This document shows, piece by piece, positions 33,383 to 42,904 of a DNA stretch of 43,041 bases. The translations under genes and the position numbers were made by a program. The DNA is from a virus, in the IMG/VR virus record IMGVR_UViG_3300025695_000032, positions 1 through 43,041 of that record; one strand, written 5' to 3'. Position 1 is the first letter of the stretch. Each line of letters opens with the position of its first letter. A model generated the notes under the pieces. It saw only the letters and a program-made list of their open reading frames with translations, was not told the DNA's origin and did not search any database.

Positions 33383-33597
33383 TTAACTTCTCCACCATTT
33401 TCCAGTTCAATACTTCTTATAATACTTGCTATAGCTTCACGCTTATCCTGCTCTGTGTCTTTATATCCACGTAAGCCGCTACATAACATCTTCTTGATAG
33501 CGTGTTGCATTGCTGGGCATCGAACATCAAACGCTTTGAGTACGTCATACACATCAACGTCATTACCTTTAAGTGATCTAATATATTTATTCTTCAT
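33379..33597 (-). CDS. Conserved small phage protein
   Basis: This 72-residue protein overlaps both neighbours by a few bases, with AAGG in its upstream region. The core, DVYDVLKAFDVRCPAMQHAI followed by KKMLCSGLRG, is one I recall from many phage genomes as a small conserved hypothetical protein. No catalytic residue set is evident. The Cys-x-His spacing may matter but cannot be assigned. Confidence 0.7.
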   Translation of the reverse strand: MKNKYIRSLKGNDVDVYDVLKAFDVRCPAMQHAIKKMLCSGLRGYKDTEQDKREAIASIIRSIELENGGEVK

Positions 33598-33874
33598 TAC
33601 TGACCTTAACTAATCTAATTGAGTATCCCATAGCGTTTAAGCACTTGACTACATTTGCATATGACGGCTCGGCACCATACTTAGTCCAGTTGTAGATAGA
33701 GTTAGGATGTGTACCTAATATCTCACCTAACTTATAGGCATTAGTATTATTGGCATCCATAAGCTGTTGTAGCATGACACCTGCTTTTTGTGTGTTAAAC
33801 GGCGCAGTCTCGTCAACCCCACGTGCTTCAAGGTCGTCGTAGTACGCGTTTTCTAAGTCTTTGTAATAAGACAT
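33587..33874 (-). CDS. Helix-turn-helix DNA-binding regulator
   Basis: This 95-residue protein carries a helix-turn-helix of the Cro/CI (XRE) type at about residues 45-85: NAYKLGEILGTHPNSIYNW is the turn and recognition helix, followed by PSYANVVKCLNAMGYSIRLV. AGAGG lies 8 bases before the ATG. An 8-bp inverted repeat (33921-33940) lies just upstream and could be its own operator. It is the only clear regulator in the window, so it is a candidate for the TAATCCC palindromes as well; neither binding is shown. Confidence 0.75.
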   Translation of the reverse strand: MSYYKDLENAYYDDLEARGVDETAPFNTQKAGVMLQQLMDANNTNAYKLGEILGTHPNSIYNWTKYGAEPSYANVVKCLNAMGYSIRLVKVSNEE

Positions 33875-35920: not shown

Positions 35921-36181
35921 TCAGTAATTCAGTGCGATTAACGCCTCAATATAATTCTTGGCTTCTTCTTTTGTAGAGAACATCTCGTTACGAAAATCAG
36001 GTAAGTTTACCTTCCAACAGTCATCAGTAACAAACTCTATCGATGCGATGAACTCCTTATCTTCTTGTTCACCGCGCCAAAAACGTCTAGGTTTATCTTG
36101 AACCTTTAGTGCTGAGTATAAGCATAGCCCAGCATAATGGTCACATACAATATGGTAATTACGCTTTGAATGATTCTGCAT
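35921..36181 (-). CDS. Hypothetical protein between MoxR and VWA genes
   Basis: This 86-residue protein starts inside the end of the MoxR gene (23-base overlap) and stops 9 bases before the VWA gene. Its ribosome site is weak. It looks like a mixed alpha/beta domain (YHIVCDHYAGLCLYSALKV, then KEEAKNYIEALIAL). It may be a substrate or adaptor of the MoxR/VWA pair, as an inference from position only. Confidence 0.6.
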   Translation of the reverse strand: MQNHSKRNYHIVCDHYAGLCLYSALKVQDKPRRFWRGEQEDKEFIASIEFVTDDCWKVNLPDFRNEMFSTKEEAKNYIEALIALNY

Positions 36182-37163
36182 TGTTCATCGCCCATTGTGT
36201 GAAAGCCGGAGCACGTGTGATTGTCTTGTCACGTTTGTGCGCTAATTTCATAACCAGTGTTTGAATCTCAGCTGGCATCTTTTGTAGGAACTTCCATACG
36301 TTATCAAAGTTACTGGCGTCAGCACGCACGGCTAGACCCATCGCTACACAGTAACGCACGTTTAGCTCTTCGGGTACTTCGACGTCCTTACCTTCTAAGA
36401 TGTCATCAATACGTGGCATAGACTCCCAGATACGTAAGTGAGTCTCGAACATCATAGCCGCTTCTTCACCGATGTCGCCCTTAATCATCTCTACACGGTC
36501 ACGTGTTGGTACTTCTAAGTCTAGTACATCATTGACAGCGAACCATGAACGCGGGCTAGGGAACGCCTTGATTTCATTGCCACCCTCGAACTTATGTAGC
36601 ATGTCGGGACGGTCACGTAAGAACGATAATATCTCAGGCTTGACGCCTTGGGTAATCGCATAGTTAGTAAAGTTATCAAGTGTTGTATCAACTTGTAGGT
36701 CACACATACGATTCTGTAATGGTGCCGCAAGGTTGAATGTTACACCTCGGTCTGACTTGTTGTTGCCTGCTGCGACAATCATCCATGTGTCAGGGATACC
36801 AAAGTCTTCAGGCGTTAGCGTTAGCTGGTATGCCGCAGCTTGTACAGCTGGCGGTGCCGAAGTAATCTCATCTAAGAATAAGATACCTGAGCCTGAGCTT
36901 GGTAAGAAATCTGGTCTTGCCCAATTCGTTTTGCCTTCTTTGATATTAGGAATACCACGTAGGTCAGTCGGGTCCATCTGCGCTAAGCGTAGGTCAATCA
37001 TGCCCTGCCAGTCGTTGATATGTTCTGCAAGTAACTCTGAGGTCTGCTTAACTACTTCAGACTTGCCTATGCCCGACTTGCCACGTAAGAATACGCAACG
37101 CTTACGGGTGTTAGGGTTTAAGAATCTTTTAACTAAAATTGGTGTAACGTCTTGAATCAACAT
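36159..37163 (-). CDS. MoxR-family AAA ATPase (CobS-like)
   Basis: This 334-residue ATPase has Walker A GKSGIGKS (28-35), Walker B ILFLDE (D98, E99), sensor AAGNNKSD (around N134) and a likely arginine finger region at PLQNRMCDL. The order and the helical C-terminus match MoxR/CobS-type AAA proteins, which remodel targets together with VWA partners. A TAATCCC palindrome (37198-37213) sits 35 bases upstream of the start. Substrate unknown. Confidence 0.85.
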   Translation of the reverse strand: MLIQDVTPILVKRFLNPNTRKRCVFLRGKSGIGKSEVVKQTSELLAEHINDWQGMIDLRLAQMDPTDLRGIPNIKEGKTNWARPDFLPSSGSGILFLDEITSAPPAVQAAAYQLTLTPEDFGIPDTWMIVAAGNNKSDRGVTFNLAAPLQNRMCDLQVDTTLDNFTNYAITQGVKPEILSFLRDRPDMLHKFEGGNEIKAFPSPRSWFAVNDVLDLEVPTRDRVEMIKGDIGEEAAMMFETHLRIWESMPRIDDILEGKDVEVPEELNVRYCVAMGLAVRADASNFDNVWKFLQKMPAEIQTLVMKLAHKRDKTITRAPAFTQWAMNNAESFKA

Positions 37164-37197: not shown

Positions 37198-37213
37198 TAA
37201 TCCCACGGGATTA
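37198..37213. promoter_or_regulatory. TAATCCC palindrome, copy A
   Basis: TAATCCCACGGGATTA, a 16-bp palindrome with a one-base-pair mismatch at its centre. It overlaps the stop codon of the gene 37211-37423 and lies 35 bases upstream of the MoxR start. One of six copies in the window (see findings). Confidence 0.85.
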
Positions 37214-37423
37214 GTTGTCGCTATCTCTATCGAGTACAGCCTCAGCATAGCGCGCCATGTTAACAGGGCTAACGCTAAGTTTTTCGTAGTCTATACCAGT
37301 GAATGAGTATGTGTCTTTATTGTAAGGCTTGTATATCGCCTCTGCATCAGCAAGCAATTTCATCACCTGCATAGCCACATCTGAATCTACTATAATATCT
37401 TTTACTTGAATTGTCATCTTCAT
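37211..37423 (-). CDS. Hypothetical protein in the MoxR operon
   Basis: ATG 37423 is chosen because GGAG lies 7 bases upstream, one base after the stop of the upstream gene. A longer frame upstream would run into that gene. The 70-residue product (MKMTIQVKDIIVDSDVAMQV, then FTGIDYEKLSVSPVNMARYAEAV) is small and mixed alpha/beta. No family recognised. Coupled to the DUF3150-like gene. Confidence 0.65.
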   Translation of the reverse strand: MKMTIQVKDIIVDSDVAMQVMKLLADAEAIYKPYNKDTYSFTGIDYEKLSVSPVNMARYAEAVLDRDSDN

Positions 37424-37424
37424 G

Positions 37425-38306
37425 CTATATCTCCAACATTGAATCAATTTTACTAAGTAGCGCACTGGTATTGTCTGCCACATCTTTACGTACACCATCA
37501 CTTGAACGCAGTGTATCTGCATCCGGTAATGAATACGCTACATCACTTGTTAGCTGTTGTATATCGCTAGGCATAACCTTGGCGAAGTCAGTCAATAAGT
37601 CAATCTCATGCTTAATGTTATCTACTACGCTGTCACGGAATATCGGTGCTTTAACTTCCGGTGCCCCAGTGCGTGCGTTAATAGTAACACGGTCTTCTTT
37701 ATTACATACCTCATTGAGCTTGCCGACTACCTCACGTAGTCTTTCAAGCGGCGTGCGTAACAAGTCTTCCATCGCTGATTTAGTTTGCTGTTCTACTTGT
37801 GAGCGTAAGATACTTAACTCTTCTTCTTGCAAGTCTACACGGAAGTCACCATAGTCAGGCACTGGCTTGTATGCTAGCTCAAACTTGAATCGCTCACGCA
37901 AACTAGATACGTCAGGGTAATCTAACTCATCAAACAAATCACCTTGCTGTGCACGTGCTTGGTCCAGTACGTTAACCCAATTCTGCAAGAACGCTGTTAC
38001 TGATTGATCGAACTGTAACTTGAACTTCTCTATCTGCTCAGCAAAATCCATAAACCGTGCGCTAGGTAATAGATACTCACCTCTACCCCATGCGTAAGTA
38101 GTACGTTCAATGTAATAACGCGCTGATGTTTCTACTGCCTTGATAGGTTGCGTTAAGTGTTTCGGATACAAGTCCTTACGATATATACCTGCGTTGTGTG
38201 CGTTGGTTGCTCGCTCTGCGGCATCCGTTGCTTTGCCATCTGTCTTAGTCATTTGTGGTTTGCCCACTGATAATGACACAATTAATGCGTGGTCTTTTAA
38301 GCTCAT
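37425..38306 (-). CDS. DUF3150-like protein
   Basis: This 293-residue, helical and charged protein looks like the DUF3150 family, which I recall beside MoxR and VWA genes on phages and plasmids. Long helical stretches (FAEQIEKFKLQFDQSVTAF, LRSQVEQQTKSAMEDLL) and a C-terminal region (FAKVMPSDIQQLTSDVAYSL) are visible. No enzyme motif is seen. With the MoxR and VWA genes downstream it forms a three-part module, probably acting in one complex. Family identification is moderate. Confidence 0.6.
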   Translation of the reverse strand: MSLKDHALIVSLSVGKPQMTKTDGKATDAAERATNAHNAGIYRKDLYPKHLTQPIKAVETSARYYIERTTYAWGRGEYLLPSARFMDFAEQIEKFKLQFDQSVTAFLQNWVNVLDQARAQQGDLFDELDYPDVSSLRERFKFELAYKPVPDYGDFRVDLQEEELSILRSQVEQQTKSAMEDLLRTPLERLREVVGKLNEVCNKEDRVTINARTGAPEVKAPIFRDSVVDNIKHEIDLLTDFAKVMPSDIQQLTSDVAYSLPDADTLRSSDGVRKDVADNTSALLSKIDSMLEI

Positions 38307-38307
38307 G

Positions 38308-38784
38308 TTATTCTCCTAATACTGATTTAAGTAACTCACCGCCGTCGAATGTAAAATCTTCATCGACTCGTTTTATTTGCATTATCAATTCAAAGTAGTC
38401 ATTCAAATGTAAACCCTCTACACATGTATAACGGTCATCAATATCTTCACCTATAATGACATACCCACCACCGCCACCAGTGTTGACAGCCATCTCGATA
38501 AACTTAGTAAACCTACGCTCGACTGAGAACGGCAAGTTTTTAAACTGCGACTCAATAACAAACGTATGCTGTTTATCTAGGTACTCACTATTGTAATAGC
38601 GGTATGCGCCTGTTCTAAATACGTCAATCAATGCTAGTTCGTGGTTAAAGCCTGCACTGTTTTCTTCAGTGCCATACCATTCAACTTGTTCTTGCATATC
38701 AAGTACAGCTGCACATAACCAAGCGGTTAGTTTTTCTTTGTCATTAAAACCAATGACGAAAGCTACGTCTGAGTAATAACTCAT
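38308..38784 (-). CDS. Hypothetical protein, first gene of the MoxR module transcript
   Basis: ATG 38784 is chosen because GGAG lies 6 bases upstream; a TTG at 38796 would overlap this site. The 158-residue protein has an N-terminal helix-rich part (YYSDVAFVIGFNDKEKLTAWL), an acidic composition and a five-glycine stretch (NTGGGGGYVIIGE). No family recognised. A TAATCCC palindrome lies 17 bases upstream and a promoter 80 bases upstream. Confidence 0.65.
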   Translation of the reverse strand: MSYYSDVAFVIGFNDKEKLTAWLCAAVLDMQEQVEWYGTEENSAGFNHELALIDVFRTGAYRYYNSEYLDKQHTFVIESQFKNLPFSVERRFTKFIEMAVNTGGGGGYVIIGEDIDDRYTCVEGLHLNDYFELIMQIKRVDEDFTFDGGELLKSVLGE

Positions 38785-38800
38785 AAGTTTCTCCAAATTG

Positions 38801-38818
38801 TTAATCCCGCGGGATTAA
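38801..38818. promoter_or_regulatory. TAATCCC palindrome, copy B
   Basis: TTAATCCCGCGGGATTAA is a perfect 18-bp palindrome (SacII core). It lies between the promoter at 38865-38893 and the start of the gene at 38784, at about +40 of the predicted transcript. Confidence 0.9.
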
Positions 38819-38836
38819 AAGTAAGTTAGTCAGTGA

Positions 38837-38858
38837 GTGGTTGGTATCTCCCAGCCAC
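38837..38858 (-). promoter_or_regulatory. Leader hairpin at the 5' end of the MoxR module transcript
   Basis: GTGGTTGG (38837-38844) and CCAGCCAC (38851-38858) form an 8-position stem with one mismatch on the minus strand and a 6-base loop. The predicted transcription start from the -10 box at 38865-38870 is at about 38858, so the hairpin would be the very 5' end of the RNA. Confidence 0.6.
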
Positions 38859-38864
38859 ATATAC

Positions 38865-38893
38865 ATTATATCAAGTGGTAAGTGTTAAGTCAA
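38865..38893 (-). promoter_or_regulatory. Sigma70-type promoter P1
   Basis: On the minus strand TTGACT (38888-38893) and TATAAT (38865-38870) are separated by 17 bases. The -35 matches 5 of 6 and the -10 is perfect. The -35 overlaps the stop codon of the gene at 38890. It drives 38308 and the genes beyond. Confidence 0.8.
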
Positions 38894-39483
38894 ATAGGCA
38901 ACAAACTCTGAGCGTAATTGTTCTTAACCTTATAGGCATGCGCTACTCCTTTCGCCATGTCTTCTAGTATTTCATCACCATACTTTTCATCTTTCCCCGT
39001 CTCGAATAGGTATGACTCATACCCACCACATGAATCGGTGTATTCATCTTCATGCCCTACTACTTCGGCGGTGATTGTGACGAAGTGCCAAAAGTTATGG
39101 AACCATTCATCAATACGCTCGACTGATTCGTTTACAACCTCTAAGCATTTAGCAAAATCTGCCTGCCCTGAGATTTTTTGGTACAGCCTAGCCGACTCGA
39201 ATATATCGAACTGCATGTCATTCACTATGCGGTAACCCATCGCGTGAGCTTGCATGTGTTCTTCGTCCGTTATCTCGTCGTTTTGGTGTAACTCATCTAC
39301 GTCATCCAAGTCAGTCATATTCACAAACGGTATCGTTTCATACTCCAAATAATCATAACACTCTAGCAGGTAATCATACCCTATGAAATCATCATACGTC
39401 TGCGTCAGTTTCACCTCGATGCCATCAATCTCTATAAAGGTATAGTAACCTTGTTCGAACGTTTCCCAAGTATATTTACTCAT
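38890..39483 (-). CDS. Acidic hypothetical protein
   Basis: ATG 39483 is chosen because GGGG lies 6 bases upstream. The 197-residue product is very acidic (many Asp, Glu and Tyr; for example DLDDVDELHQNDEITDEEHM). No family recognised. High acidity and early placement fit a host-takeover or DNA-mimic protein, but this is speculation. Its start overlaps the 45-residue membrane protein gene (39476-39613). Confidence 0.65.
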   Translation of the reverse strand: MSKYTWETFEQGYYTFIEIDGIEVKLTQTYDDFIGYDYLLECYDYLEYETIPFVNMTDLDDVDELHQNDEITDEEHMQAHAMGYRIVNDMQFDIFESARLYQKISGQADFAKCLEVVNESVERIDEWFHNFWHFVTITAEVVGHEDEYTDSCGGYESYLFETGKDEKYGDEILEDMAKGVAHAYKVKNNYAQSLLPI

Positions 39484-39613
39484 CATCATCCCCTTTACGG
39501 TCTTTATAATCATTGTATATTAGGTAACCTGCCACACCCCATAGCACGGCAATCATTACCACCATTCTCAACGCCAAGTCGTAGTTAATATCAAACTCAA
39601 CTAAATCAATCAT
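39476..39613 (-). CDS. 45-residue single-span membrane protein
   Basis: A short frame behind an excellent AAGGAG (8 bases before ATG 39613). The product has an acidic N-terminus (MIDLVEFDINYD), one membrane helix (LRMVVMIAVLWGVAGYLIY) and a charged tail (NDYKDRKGDDDE). Its end overlaps the next gene's start by 8 bases. Ribosome site, spacing and hydrophobic span all support a real gene. Function unknown; small early membrane proteins in phages can block superinfection. Confidence 0.65.
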   Translation of the reverse strand: MIDLVEFDINYDLALRMVVMIAVLWGVAGYLIYNDYKDRKGDDDE

Positions 39614-39615
39614 GG

Positions 39616-40074
39616 CTAAATCTCCTTAATGTCCCAATATCTGCCTAGTTTTACCGTTTCATTTACCGTTTCACATAGCGATATCATCATTCCACCATCT
39701 TCATACACATCCCAGACTTTGTTTTCCGCGTCGAATTTATCTGTCGCTTCTACGTCGATATAATACTCAGTTATCACCTTGAACGGCACGCGATACATTT
39801 TATTGGGTTTGTCTGGCATCAGTGTTGACACAGGTACTTTGAAAAACGCCACCTCATTCTCAGTATCCGTTATGTAGTTATCTTGCTCACCTCTTATGCA
39901 AGGGTACACCGTTATGCGAGCGGTATTTTCACTATCTGTTTCTACGTATACATTGACGTCATACACCTCATTATCAGCTGTTGTGAATGATGTCCACCAG
40001 TCTTCATCGCCGTTATACGTGCCGTCATCTAAAATGGCTTTAAGTGCTAGTCGTTCTAAGTTGTACTTGCTCAT
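39616..40074 (-). CDS. Hypothetical acidic protein
   Basis: This 152-residue protein has two visible parts. The N-terminal one is acidic beta-rich (DVNVYVETDSENTARITVYP) and the C-terminal one has alternating hydrophobics (FKVITEYYIDVEATDKFDAE), which recalls small DpnD/PcfM-like domains, though I cannot confirm this. AGGA lies about 9 bases upstream. It overlaps the preceding gene by 4 bases. Confidence 0.62.
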   Translation of the reverse strand: MSKYNLERLALKAILDDGTYNGDEDWWTSFTTADNEVYDVNVYVETDSENTARITVYPCIRGEQDNYITDTENEVAFFKVPVSTLMPDKPNKMYRVPFKVITEYYIDVEATDKFDAENKVWDVYEDGGMMISLCETVNETVKLGRYWDIKEI

Positions 40075-40328
40075 AATATTAATCCTATAATTTCATTCTC
40101 AATTTCATCTGCGTGTTGTTCGGCTAACCACTTGACGGTATCAGGTGGAAATTCTGCGTAGCCCTCGTCGTACCACACGGCAATTACTCTATCGCTGACT
40201 AGCTCGCCCTCTTCATAGTCACGTGGATCTGCCGATTCTTTGCTAGGGATGTAAGCTATCTCTACTTCAAACGTTAGCCCACGTACCTCAAAACATTCTG
40301 TCGTTTCTTTTATGTACGGGTTATTCAT
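40071..40328 (-). CDS. Hypothetical acidic protein
   Basis: This 85-residue acidic protein (Glu and Asp rich: YIPSKESADPRDYEEGELV) starts behind AAGGAG, which merges with TAATCCC palindrome copy C. No family recognised. It lies in the short operon downstream of the gene at 40353. Confidence 0.62.
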   Translation of the reverse strand: MNNPYIKETTECFEVRGLTFEVEIAYIPSKESADPRDYEEGELVSDRVIAVWYDEGYAEFPPDTVKWLAEQHADEIENEIIGLIL

Positions 40329-40339
40329 TGTCTTCTCCT

Positions 40340-40355
40340 TAATCCCGTGGGATTA
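40340..40355. promoter_or_regulatory. TAATCCC palindrome, copy C
   Basis: TAATCCCGTGGGATTA (plus strand). It overlaps the stop codon of the gene 40353-41084 and directly abuts the AAGGAG of the gene starting at 40328. Confidence 0.85.
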
Positions 40356-41084
40356 GTCATTAATTAGTGCGTATACTGCGTTAAATACGTGCTTGTCACC
40401 GTCGAACTCAGTGGTTCCGTTGACTGCTGTAATATAATCTTCTAATACGTTGCGTGTACCTACGGCATAATCCATATCCGGCAAACAGTGCAACATATCT
40501 TCAAACTTAGTTTTGTACTCTTGGCACTTTCTTTTGATAGTCTGCGACTGTCTGCGTGGCGTGTTGATAAACTTATGCAAGTCTTGAACAGCATGGTCCA
40601 GTCTATACGCCACCTCATTAACCAATTCCTGACTGTAACGCCCTGAATATCGACCAACATACGACAATGAATATATACCATCCATCCAGTCAAACTTAAA
40701 TGTGTTCTCACTTTCAAGGTGGTTATGTATCACATACGATAACGCCTTATTACACTCACTTTGGTGCTTAGATGTCGTCACGCTGTGCGTATAGTCATTG
40801 ACTCGATGTTCAAGCGAATCTGTCTCAACACAATATACCAGTGCCCGAATAACTGCGTCATAGCTTTTACAATTTGCTAGGGTGATGCTTTTATCTAGCT
40901 TTTCACCTCGCTGATATCGTATAAAAGCCGAGCCTATCTCTACTGAAAATGTTGCATCTTTATCTCGATTAGTAGAACCCGTGTATACTGCACCTGCTTT
41001 TACATACTCAGATGTTTTTGGATTCTCAACCAAATCTGCCCAAATGTTCGCTACTGTAGAATTACCAATATTTCTTGTACGCAT
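40353..41084 (-). CDS. Hypothetical protein, early region
   Basis: This 243-residue protein starts behind AGGAG (6 bases). It has a serine/threonine-rich N-terminal part (GAVYTGSTNRDKDATFS), a His/Cys-containing middle (TSKHQSECNKAL, IHNHLESENTF) and a C-terminal helical region with several Cys (KRKCQEYKTKFEDMLHCLPDMD). No family recognised. It is preceded by promoter P2 and palindrome copy D, and followed by copy C at its stop. Confidence 0.65.
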   Translation of the reverse strand: MRTRNIGNSTVANIWADLVENPKTSEYVKAGAVYTGSTNRDKDATFSVEIGSAFIRYQRGEKLDKSITLANCKSYDAVIRALVYCVETDSLEHRVNDYTHSVTTSKHQSECNKALSYVIHNHLESENTFKFDWMDGIYSLSYVGRYSGRYSQELVNEVAYRLDHAVQDLHKFINTPRRQSQTIKRKCQEYKTKFEDMLHCLPDMDYAVGTRNVLEDYITAVNGTTEFDGDKHVFNAVYALIND

Positions 41085-41112
41085 GTCGTACTCCTAATTA
41101 ATCAAGTCAATG

Positions 41113-41130
41113 TTAATCCCGCGGGATTAA
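41113..41130. promoter_or_regulatory. TAATCCC palindrome, copy D
   Basis: TTAATCCCGCGGGATTAA is a perfect 18-bp palindrome, identical to copy B. It lies between promoter P2 and the gene start at 41084 (29 bases upstream of the start). Confidence 0.9.
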
Positions 41131-41146
41131 GTAAATAAGTAAATAA

Positions 41147-41199
41147 GTGAGTGAGCAATGCCGAAACCGACTAAGGAAAAAACGTCATCCCCCACTCAC
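41147..41199 (-). promoter_or_regulatory. Leader stem at the 5' end of the 40353 transcript
   Basis: GTGAGTG (41147-41153) and CACTCAC (41193-41199) are exact complements with a 39-base loop. On the minus strand the 5' arm begins at about the predicted +1 of promoter P2. It is weaker than the other two leader hairpins because of the long loop. Confidence 0.45.
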
Positions 41200-41206
41200 A
41201 ATATCT

Positions 41207-41235
41207 ATTATACAGATGTACGAATACTAAGTCAA
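41207..41235 (-). promoter_or_regulatory. Sigma70-type promoter P2
   Basis: TTGACT (41230-41235) and TATAAT (41207-41212) on the minus strand are separated by 17 bases. It shares ATCTGTATAAT with promoter P3. It drives the gene at 40353. Confidence 0.82.
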
Positions 41236-41296
41236 ATTAAGGACTCAACTTGTTTTATGTGTGTTTTGTAGATTTAGTTTGTATATCACGTGGTCA

Positions 41297-41342
41297 AGAT
41301 AACAGATATTTATTAACTGGTGGAGATAACAGATATTTATTA
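41297..41342. repeat. 19-bp direct repeat AGATAACAGATATTTATTA
   Basis: Two exact copies at 41297-41315 and 41324-41342, 27 bases apart start to start, with a short GGTGG spacer region. The repeat is AT-rich and next to promoter P2. Confidence 0.85.
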
Positions 41343-41379
41343 TATATCTATTTTGTTGTACACGTGATTGACCTAAAAC

Positions 41380-41393
41380 GGTTACGCGTAACC
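41380..41393. repeat. 14-bp palindrome GGTTACGCGTAACC, copy 1
   Basis: A perfect palindrome. An identical copy lies at 42025-42038, so the two bracket the repeat-rich region. Protein-binding site inferred. Confidence 0.75.
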
Positions 41394-41939
41394 CATTGCT
41401 GCATTGCAATATAAAATTAGACCTTTAAAATCAAGGCTTTATCTGGTTGGACCAATTTATAGATTGGCGCAGGTCGCGTCGTTACTGGGATGTAGGCGTT
41501 GTGAGTGTTTACTAACCTTGGAAGCCTCATTTCTTCGTTGGGTTGTAGATTGGCTGTAACCCGCGTGGATACTGGGTTTAGATTGGGGTGGTTTCGTAAG
41601 TTATTGTTTTTGCTCATTTTAGATTTTAGATTGTAGATTGGCAATAAGAGAAAGTTTGAATTGCGGGGCTCGGCTTTTCAGACCTAAATGGACTTAGATT
41701 TTTAGGGTTTCCTCTATATATTTCTAATCTAATCTATAAATATATATATAGAAGTTTTTTTGGTGCCATTTGCTGTCGCAAGTCATTGATTTATAAGGGT
41801 TTTAAATACGTGGTCAACATACCTATTCGTAGATTTGTAGATTTACACTATATATGGGGACTAAAAAACGCTAAGTCATTGATTTTAAACGTCTAATTTA
41901 TTTTGGCTATTTTTCGCTGGCACGGAGCTTGCATAGTAT

Positions 41940-41957
41940 TTAATCCCACGGGATTAA
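41940..41957. promoter_or_regulatory. TAATCCC palindrome, copy E
   Basis: TTAATCCCACGGGATTAA, matching copy A in its centre. No gene follows within 800 bases on the minus strand, so this copy is not simply a leader element. It lies next to the 7-bp tandem array. Confidence 0.85.
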
Positions 41958-41960
41958 TCA

Positions 41961-41995
41961 TCACTCATCACTCATCACTCATCACTCATCACTCA
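41961..41995. repeat. Five tandem copies of TCACTCA
   Basis: Five exact 7-bp units (41961-41995) follow palindrome E. The reverse complement (TGAGTGA) resembles the GTGAGTG leader stem downstream of P2. Confidence 0.85.
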
Positions 41996-42000
41996 TCATC

Positions 42001-42064
42001 ATGATAGTAGACAAACGCACTTCGGGTTACGCGTAACCTCATCACTTATTGATGATAGTAGTTA
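42001..42064. repeat. ATGATAGTAG iterons, left pair
   Basis: ATGATAGTAG at 42001 and the longer ATGATAGTAGTTA at 42052. Two further exact copies of the longer form occur at 42867 and 42892, on the far side of the 42132 gene. Confidence 0.7.
42025..42038. repeat. 14-bp palindrome GGTTACGCGTAACC, copy 2
   Basis: Identical to the copy at 41380-41393. It lies between the two left iterons. Confidence 0.75.
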
Positions 42065-42106
42065 TGTATTTTTTAAAAAATCGCGGGTTTTTTGGCGGGC
42101 AATAAA

Positions 42107-42124
42107 AAGCCCCTTTCGGGGCTT
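42107..42124 (-). terminator. Terminator of the 42132 gene
   Basis: AAGCCCC (42107-42113) / GGGGCTT (42118-42124) with loop TTTC, 8 bases after the minus-strand stop and followed on that strand by TTTTATT. A standard intrinsic terminator that isolates the non-coding region from this gene. Confidence 0.8.
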
Positions 42125-42131
42125 AGTGTTT

Positions 42132-42731
42132 TTACTTTTTGGTGGGGATCTTAGTCAGGCGATAACCTTGCGCTTTTAAAGCCTCTTTCAATTCGTCAAC
42201 CCATTCGTCCGAATGAAAACCTCTTGCGAACGTTTCCCAATACGCTTTCTGCTGTACCTTGCTTTCTTGCACAATCTGTGACGGTGTAGCCGGCGCCGAT
42301 GTTACTGGCTTTTTGTCGATAGGCTTAGCCGGTTTACGACCACCACCGGCACGGCGTCCAACGCCTAGATCGTCGCGCGCTTCCTTAACCGCTTTTTTCA
42401 TGTTGTGCTTGCTTAGGTCCGAAGCGGCTTTTTCTGCCGTGGTATGTACCTCGTTGCCTTTTACATCCTCAAAAGATATTGGCGTATCGCCTAGCGCGTA
42501 CAAAAATAACGCGTCGCTGAAGTTAGCTTTAACATTGTTGTCGTTGCCGTACACTTCACGATAAAGTGAAACCACTTGTGCCGTGCGTTTCTGCGGGCAC
42601 TCAATAGATTTGTCTAATTGTTTTTTCGCCTCGAAAGCCGCTTGTTTACAGCACGCAAGGACCGAACGAGATGCCTCGCACGCGTCGTTTAAAAGAGTTG
42701 AAACAGTTTTAAGTAATTTTTGATTAGACAT
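42132..42731 (-). CDS. Hypothetical protein beside the candidate origin
   Basis: This 199-residue protein starts behind AAGGAG (6 bases). The N-terminal part is helical with several Cys (LLNDACEASRSVLACCKQAAF, IECPQKR). The middle has a Gly/Arg/Lys/Pro segment (GVGRRAGGGRKPAKPIDKK) that resembles an AT-hook-like DNA-binding loop. The C-terminal part is helical. No family recognised. With its own promoter (P3), its own terminator, and iterons on both sides, it is a candidate origin-binding or early regulatory protein. This is inference. Confidence 0.65.
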   Translation of the reverse strand: MSNQKLLKTVSTLLNDACEASRSVLACCKQAAFEAKKQLDKSIECPQKRTAQVVSLYREVYGNDNNVKANFSDALFLYALGDTPISFEDVKGNEVHTTAEKAASDLSKHNMKKAVKEARDDLGVGRRAGGGRKPAKPIDKKPVTSAPATPSQIVQESKVQQKAYWETFARGFHSDEWVDELKEALKAQGYRLTKIPTKK

Positions 42732-42764
42732 AAATGTCTCCTTAGTCAGTTAGTAATTAAATAA

Positions 42765-42780
42765 GTGAATATCAATTCAC
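42765..42780 (-). promoter_or_regulatory. Leader hairpin of the 42132 transcript
   Basis: GTGAAT-ATCA-ATTCAC is a perfect 6-bp stem with a 4-base loop. Promoter P3 predicts transcription start at about 42781, so the hairpin forms the 5' end of the RNA. Confidence 0.65.
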
Positions 42781-42787
42781 AATTCTT

Positions 42788-42815
42788 ATTATACAGATAT
42801 TAATTATCGTGTCAA
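42788..42815 (-). promoter_or_regulatory. Consensus sigma70 promoter P3
   Basis: TTGACA (42810-42815) and TATAAT (42788-42793) on the minus strand, both perfect, with 16 bases between. It is the strongest promoter that I see in the window and drives the 42132 gene. Confidence 0.87.
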
Positions 42816-42828
42816 CTAATCGAGTGTT

Positions 42829-42844
42829 TAATCCCACGGGATTA
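42829..42844. promoter_or_regulatory. TAATCCC palindrome, copy F
   Basis: TAATCCCACGGGATTA, 13 bases upstream of the -35 box of promoter P3. Unlike copies B and D it lies upstream of the promoter rather than in the leader. Confidence 0.85.
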
Positions 42845-42866: not shown

Positions 42867-42904
42867 ATGATAGTAGTTAGGCATTATAGCTATGATAGTA
42901 GTTA
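42867..42904. repeat. ATGATAGTAGTTA iterons, right pair
   Basis: Two exact 13-bp copies at 42867 and 42892, 25 bases apart, between copy F and the terminator. The same motif recurs at 42001 and 42052. Confidence 0.75.

Follow-up and report, generated by a model that had tools for sequence, protein, structure and literature searches.

A strict palindrome repeated at early-gene junctions of uncultured phages, a candidate operator for a phage-encoded regulator

Control by stoperators is an established feature of temperate mycobacteriophages. An L5-type genome carries 20-30 strict sites, most of them not at promoters, where a block to elongation has been proposed (PMC6550527). Multi-copy, mostly intergenic repeats are also found in the T1-like lytic phages TLS and Stevie, where the reader and role are unknown (PMC11447400, PMC4319613), and plasmid RK2 has about a dozen OB sites with a palindromic core that answer to one global repressor, KorB (PMC11790492). 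Here we describe a 16-18-bp palindrome, TAATCCC-RY-GGGATTA (R, purine; Y, pyrimidine), that occurs six times in the early region of IMG/VR virus record IMGVR_UViG_3300025695_000032; the window is the whole stretch analysed, positions 1 to 43,041 of that record (43,041 nucleotides). The sequence data point to an undescribed genome-wide early-gene switch, in which many identical docking sites would serve one protein. No prior description of the site was found in the open-access literature; subscription journals were not searched.

Of the known systems, L5/Cluster A offers the nearest model: a single strict short site is repeated many times, in part at promoters but chiefly in intergenic gaps, and its motif is particular to the lineage, diverging along with the reader (PMC6550527). 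Both traits were sought here. Many near-identical, mostly junctional sites per genome were found in the phages with the TAATCCC site. Motif change between lineages was also seen, and its link to the candidate reader, a protein family that we call W46, is suggestive and comes from one event. However, L5 sites are 13-14 bp long, asymmetric and aligned with the direction of transcription, a monomer binds them, and Cluster A phages are temperate (PMC6550527), whereas the present sites are 16-18-bp palindromes and W46 has no characterised relatives. Moreover, a search for tyrosine integrases (PF00589) gave no match in 14 palindrome-bearing records, with controls positive in 14/14; serine integrases and partition ATPases were not searched. 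Because L5 sites are asymmetric, monomer-bound and found in temperate phages, we do not file the present system as a member. The TLS and Stevie repeats, at ~22 bp, are likewise asymmetric and oriented with transcription, and neither their sequence nor their phages are related to those described here (PMC11447400, PMC4319613). KorB acts at OB sites that serve a conjugative plasmid (PMC11790492), and ParB_N (PF02195) was absent from 19 records of the phages studied here, with controls positive in 10/14. The present sites, being palindromes, also differ from T7-type promoters; the phage single-subunit RNA polymerase profile (PF00940) had no match in 19 records, but the control profiles were silent too.

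The window holds six exact matches to TAATCCCNNGGGATTA, all with an R-Y centre:

37198-37213, unstranded: palindrome A, TAATCCCACGGGATTA; holds the stop codon of gene 37211-37522, 34 bp ahead of the MoxR ATPase gene
38802-38817, unstranded: palindrome B, TAATCCCGCGGGATTA, perfect (18-mer 38801-38818), centre GC; flanked by a sigma-70 promoter and a ribosome-binding site, centre at ~+48
40340-40355, read on the plus strand: palindrome C, TAATCCCGTGGGATTA; holds the stop codon of gene 40353-41084, 11 bp ahead of gene 40071-40328
41114-41129, unstranded: palindrome D, TAATCCCGCGGGATTA, perfect (18-mer 41113-41130), centre GC; centre at ~+78 from a sigma-70 promoter, ahead of a ribosome-binding site
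41941-41956, unstranded: palindrome E, TAATCCCACGGGATTA; in non-coding DNA 3' of gene 42132-42731
42829-42844, unstranded: palindrome F, TAATCCCACGGGATTA; centre at ~-56 relative to the consensus promoter of gene 42132-42731

The initial annotation had reported these six copies, and the set proved exact and complete for the window; the starts that it gave as 38801, 41113 and 41940 are those of the 18-mers of B, D and E. Its description of their surroundings also held: B and D are the two perfect 18-mers, A and C overlap an upstream stop by supplying the TTA (minus-strand TAA) of genes 37211-37522 and 40353-41084, and B, C and D lie just 5' of a ribosome-binding site, as does A. F precedes a promoter, 13 bp upstream of a 12/12 sigma-70 consensus, and E is indeed non-coding. 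A scan at up to 3 mismatches added just 2 matches, each with 3 mismatches (24239 and 35925). Shuffled windows gave a mean of 1.1 matches at this threshold and 0/100 shuffles got to 8. The half-site TAATCCC was confined to the six palindromes, with no isolated copy. The record looks partial (43 kb vs ~58-65 kb in relatives), and the relatives' terminase and portal clusters had no match in the window.

IMG/VR was scanned for the 14 fixed bases of TAATCCC-NN-GGGATTA, and many contigs with 2 to 10 copies were recovered. Once duplicate contexts had been removed, 361 of the 363 distinct exact sites on multi-copy contigs had an R-Y centre, and in multi-copy stretches the centre was AC, GT, AT or GC at 261/261. 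The flanks extend the symmetry to a consensus of YTAATCCCRYGGGATTAR. In stretches with at least 3 copies (421,622 bases), exact sites numbered 215, against 23 one-mismatch and 4 two-mismatch sites; the TAATCCC site is therefore nearly invariant. In a scan of 85,000 cellular genomes, the matches listed were single sites with random centres (27/118 R-Y, chance-like), and this argues against a generic host repeat. At least 4 copies of one palindrome were present in 62/75 phage stretches with DUF3150, 2/24 unrelated viral stretches and 0/118 bacterial stretches. Multi-copy palindromes are thus not exclusive to the clade, since those two unrelated stretches carry a different one, repeated 4-5 times. 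Inverted repeats of their own are likewise multi-copy in the unrelated viral contigs L012 (TTTGGA-5-TCCAAA, 5 copies) and L062 (CTAACA-1-TGTTAG, 4 copies).

The palindromes belong to a clade of uncultured phages of ~58-65 kb that share MoxR, DUF3150, DUF2201 and PolA genes. The core common to the multi-copy contigs comprises a MoxR ATPase, DUF3150, a DUF2201/VWA metallopeptidase and a PolA-type polymerase, together with an exonuclease, a primase-helicase and a helicase. The TAATCCC site was found in phages spanning 43 to 64% G+C, and a DNA similarity search of the polymerase-helicase segment among phages gave no match. Isolates in INPHARED are distant: DUF3150 was found only in Planktothrix phage Pag-Yong1 and two records of equal length, and Roseobacter phage CRP-7 has MoxR and DUF2201, no DUF3150 match and no such palindrome. 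MoxR-DUF3150-VWA(DUF2201) trios also occur on Burkholderiales and Rhodovastum plasmids (L439-L442), where multi-copy palindromes are absent.

Inverted repeats were then counted without a preset motif in the window, in Pag-Yong1 and over the whole sequence of 18 relatives. Every palindrome-bearing genome examined had one dominant palindrome family of 5 to 21 copies (5-15 in the TAATCCC clade), and the runner-up family had 2 copies (at most 4, in Pag-Yong1), compared with 1 to 3 after shuffling. The half-site is spelled in five ways according to lineage, TAATCCC, WATTCCC, TATTTTCG, ATTAACA and GGTTCAG. By genome, the families are TAATCCCRYGGGATTA in 13, WATTCCCRYGGGAATW in 2, TATTTTCGCGAAAATA in 1, ATTAACANNTGTTAAT in 3 and GGTTCAGNCTGAACC in Pag-Yong1. 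In the last of these (OL906435.1; L127, L128) a 13-bp core, GTTCAGNCTGAAC, occurs 21 times, 17 with full GGTTCAG/CTGAACC arms, and several copies also lie in the late region. Across several lineages, sites stand ahead of MoxR, DUF2201, DUF3150, PolA and the first early gene, so that, in the motif scan of related phages proposed in the initial annotation, the palindrome recurs at boundaries of this type. One pair of relatives records a change of spelling. Contigs L033 and L276 are 86% identical across 4.4 kb, and at three orthologous sites the TAATCCC-GGGATTA of L033 is TATTCCC-GGGAAT in L276; base three and the base that mirrors it have both changed at 3/3. This concerted symmetric switch implies a trans-acting reader of two-fold symmetry, and the R/Y rule at the centre adds support for it.

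Open reading frames (ORFs) were called by a simple longest-ORF rule and individual gene assignments are approximate; promoters are matches to the sigma-70 consensus, not mapped transcription starts. On this basis, 196/257 sites are intergenic or at ORF edges, though ~90% of the DNA is called coding. Within TAATCCC genomes, the TAA of the palindrome itself is the stop codon of the upstream gene at 38/103 oriented sites. The genes and promoter-like sites of the early region of the window are as follows:

36159-37163, minus strand: MoxR-like AAA ATPase, after palindrome A
37425-38306, minus strand: DUF3150-like protein, a marker of the palindrome-bearing phage clade
38308-38796, minus strand: early gene with no assigned function, after palindrome B; listed from a TTG at 38796, likelier from an ATG at ~38784
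38865-38893, minus strand: promoter-like sigma-70 site, TTGACT-17-TATAAT, 11/12, upstream of palindrome B
40071-40328, minus strand: early gene of 85 aa with no assigned function, after palindrome C
40353-41084, minus strand: early gene of 243 aa with no assigned function, the first past palindrome D
41207-41235, minus strand: promoter-like sigma-70 site, TTGACT-17-TATAAT, 11/12, upstream of palindrome D
42132-42731, minus strand: W46 protein, 199 aa, first early gene, putative palindrome reader
42788-42815, minus strand: promoter-like sigma-70 site, TTGACA-16-TATAAT, 12/12, serving gene 42132-42731

The three best sigma-70 promoters in the early 10 kb of the window (12/12, 11/12 and 11/12) adjoin F, D and B. 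Across 19 genomes, 29 of the 34 promoters that score 11 or 12 of 12 have a palindrome within 150 bp, for which the chance fraction is at most 0.30 per genome, and the site is mostly downstream, at +36 to +79. At the W46 promoter in the window and in G010, the palindrome lies at -56. Over all stretches, 75/100 promoter-site pairs fell at +30 to +90, 60 of these at +40 to +59, and no helical phasing of the distances was found. The same geometry was seen in 2/3 ATTAACA genomes examined (+40 and +53). With one site beyond the promoter and others at gene junctions further downstream, the arrangement has the geometry of an elongation block.

Taken together, these data make it probable, in our judgement, that a homodimeric regulator encoded by the phage uses the palindrome as its DNA operator and runs the early region as one network. 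The suggestion that it is the site of a dimeric DNA-binding protein marking early-gene modules was made in the initial annotation and gains support from the layout in related phages, the concerted switch and the R/Y rule. We envisage that host RNA polymerase would start early transcription at the near-consensus sigma-70 promoters, and that an early product would accumulate and bind each palindrome as a dimer. The bound dimer would stop the elongating polymerase as a roadblock, in the manner of a stoperator, and the block would shut down or stage the early genes, probably that of the regulator too. The reader would most likely be W46, the first early gene, which is located among the sites. Both the block and the identity of the reader are deductions from sequence.

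W46 (42132-42731) is the best candidate for the reader of the palindrome. Of the TAATCCC, WATTCCC and TATTTTCG genomes examined, all but one 39-kb fragment encode it, and its gene is often flanked by palindromes. The predicted structure (mean predicted local distance difference test score, 86) has a helical domain of ~120 residues, followed by a basic, flexible linker and then by a pair of helices at the C terminus. No significant match to this fold was found in PDB, one uncharacterised relative was found in BFVD, and matches to Pfam and PHROG were weak and scattered, none convincing. The W46 of L033 is 82-85% identical to those of WATTCCC phages. In TAATCCC/WATTCCC pairs, 29-36% of the differences fall within alignment columns 44-80, compared with a mean of 15% (standard deviation 7) and a maximum of 31% in pairs that share a palindrome (n=82). 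This excess in the switched pairs, drawn from a single switching event, suggests that columns 44-80 form the reading surface. Two W46 copies lie close together in L059, L051, L106, G016 (L429) and G018 (L435), and in G016 and G018 palindromes are dense around the paired copies.

In the ATTAACA clade the first early gene belongs to another family, c70. Homology between W46 and c70 looked plausible by eye but was unsupported by profile comparison or fold search; with no demonstrable relation, either different readers have been recruited or the two have diverged beyond detection. The c70 family and UMO76074 of Pag-Yong1, first genes that are not detectably related to W46, may have the same role. 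Other candidates were considered. Alongside the 42132 protein, which stands as the best candidate, the initial annotation had named a helix-turn-helix protein (33587-33874), and this we rejected; it has a weak PHROG match only and is in no broadly shared gene cluster. DUF3150 is present in all palindrome lineages, but was rejected because no multi-copy palindrome accompanies the same MoxR-DUF3150-VWA module on plasmids.

Several observations weigh against an operator read by W46. W46 lacks a recognised DNA-binding domain or known fold (Pfam, PHROG, PDB, BFVD) and any detectable relation to c70 of the ATTAACA lineage, and the argument for its specificity comes from one switching event, with one of three comparisons (0.29) inside the range of same-site pairs. 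Furthermore, 61/257 sites lie inside called ORFs, partly through poor ORF calls, and the promoter-site geometry alone may also be compatible with activation or transcript processing. Sense-strand centres are biased, with AC at 100 and GT at 57 sites, orthologous sites not being independent; a purely symmetric DNA reader predicts no such strand bias. The bias would instead suit an RNA element, in which binding or cleavage of a UAAUCC-CRYG-GGAUUA hairpin just 5' of ribosome-binding sites would control translation or processing. The placement of the sites does fit, in 5' leaders and at gene junctions close to a ribosome-binding site, and the symmetric switch from A3-T14 to T3-A14 preserves RNA pairing as well. 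However, the stem is invariant and the 'loop' variable, the reverse of most protein-bound hairpins, and the loop follows a two-strand (R/Y) rule. In counts that come from related phages and are hence not independent, the flank pairs C-A (103), C-G (28), T-A (34) and T-G (29) show no base-pair covariation (odds ratio 0.32), C-A exceeding both C-G and T-A, and among single sense-strand changes the pairing-breaking 12A was found at 12 sites against 1 for the wobble-preserving 5T. The ATTAACA form would make a weak stem, Rfam had no match for the palindrome sites, and no site was listed as terminator-like on intrinsic-terminator features (a stem then a T run). An invariant stem, an R/Y loop, no flank covariation and no G-U preference favour DNA over RNA; the RNA-processing hairpin offered in the initial annotation is accordingly disfavoured, and we consider an RNA element unlikely.

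Explanations that accept a DNA site and assign it elsewhere appear less probable still. In size and strictness the palindrome is much like a parS-type site, and KorB belongs to the ParB family. This multi-copy regulator is reported to have 12 sites on plasmid RK2 (reference cited in PMC11790492), and the palindrome could by analogy be a centromere-like, replication or packaging site that nucleates a DNA-coating protein and does not control transcription. The absence of ParB_N where controls were positive speaks against this, as do the tie to promoters (~+50) and the gene junctions, unexpected for a segregation or packaging site, and we find it very unlikely. Phages often use host factors, and an operator of a host-encoded regulator, exploited by the phages, could report host state. 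Yet the cellular matches listed were single and random at the centre, two 86%-identical contigs use different sites, and the same site occurs in phages from 43 to 64% G+C, which makes a host regulator, if anything, slightly less credible. A recombination or module-boundary sequence kept by exchange between phages would account for sites between genes and for the variable gene content between them. Such a linker would not switch symmetrically and in step at all sites, nor hold a fixed relation to promoters; the recombination hot spot, another early suggestion, is thus unsupported and we give it scarcely any credence.

If the palindrome is indeed an operator for a phage-encoded dimer, it represents a regulatory code common to a large, almost uncultured phage group. 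A palindromic version of the stoperator in phages with no detectable tyrosine integrase would extend such control to lytic development, and the code switching in step would be regulator-site co-evolution caught between close relatives. A further proposal, which we put forward tentatively and rate as possible rather than probable, is that W46 is the first of a new family of DNA-binding proteins that read palindromes and have a helical fold not seen before, giving stoperator-like shut-off of transcription by host RNA polymerase in virulent phages, and that a site code diverging and switching between lineages sets up mutual incompatibility groups among lytic phages. The exact sites, their geometry and a short list of candidate readers make early-gene control directly testable with synthetic parts.

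Lastly, further repeats lie in the non-coding DNA around palindromes D, E and F. Another palindrome, GGTTACGCGTAACC, has 2 copies in the non-coding DNA flanking palindrome E (41380-41393 and 42025-42038) and 3 in L104, which bears the closest relative of W46. A 6.6-copy array of the 7-bp unit TCATCAC (41958-42002) directly abuts palindrome E, and a 27-bp unit, TGGTCAAGATAACAGATATTTATTAAC, is repeated twice at 41291-41342, in the non-coding stretch between D and E. Around W46, non-coding DNA contains 3 exact minus-strand copies of AACTACTATCAT (42052-42063, 42867-42878 and 42892-42903), two of which are located between a terminator and palindrome F.

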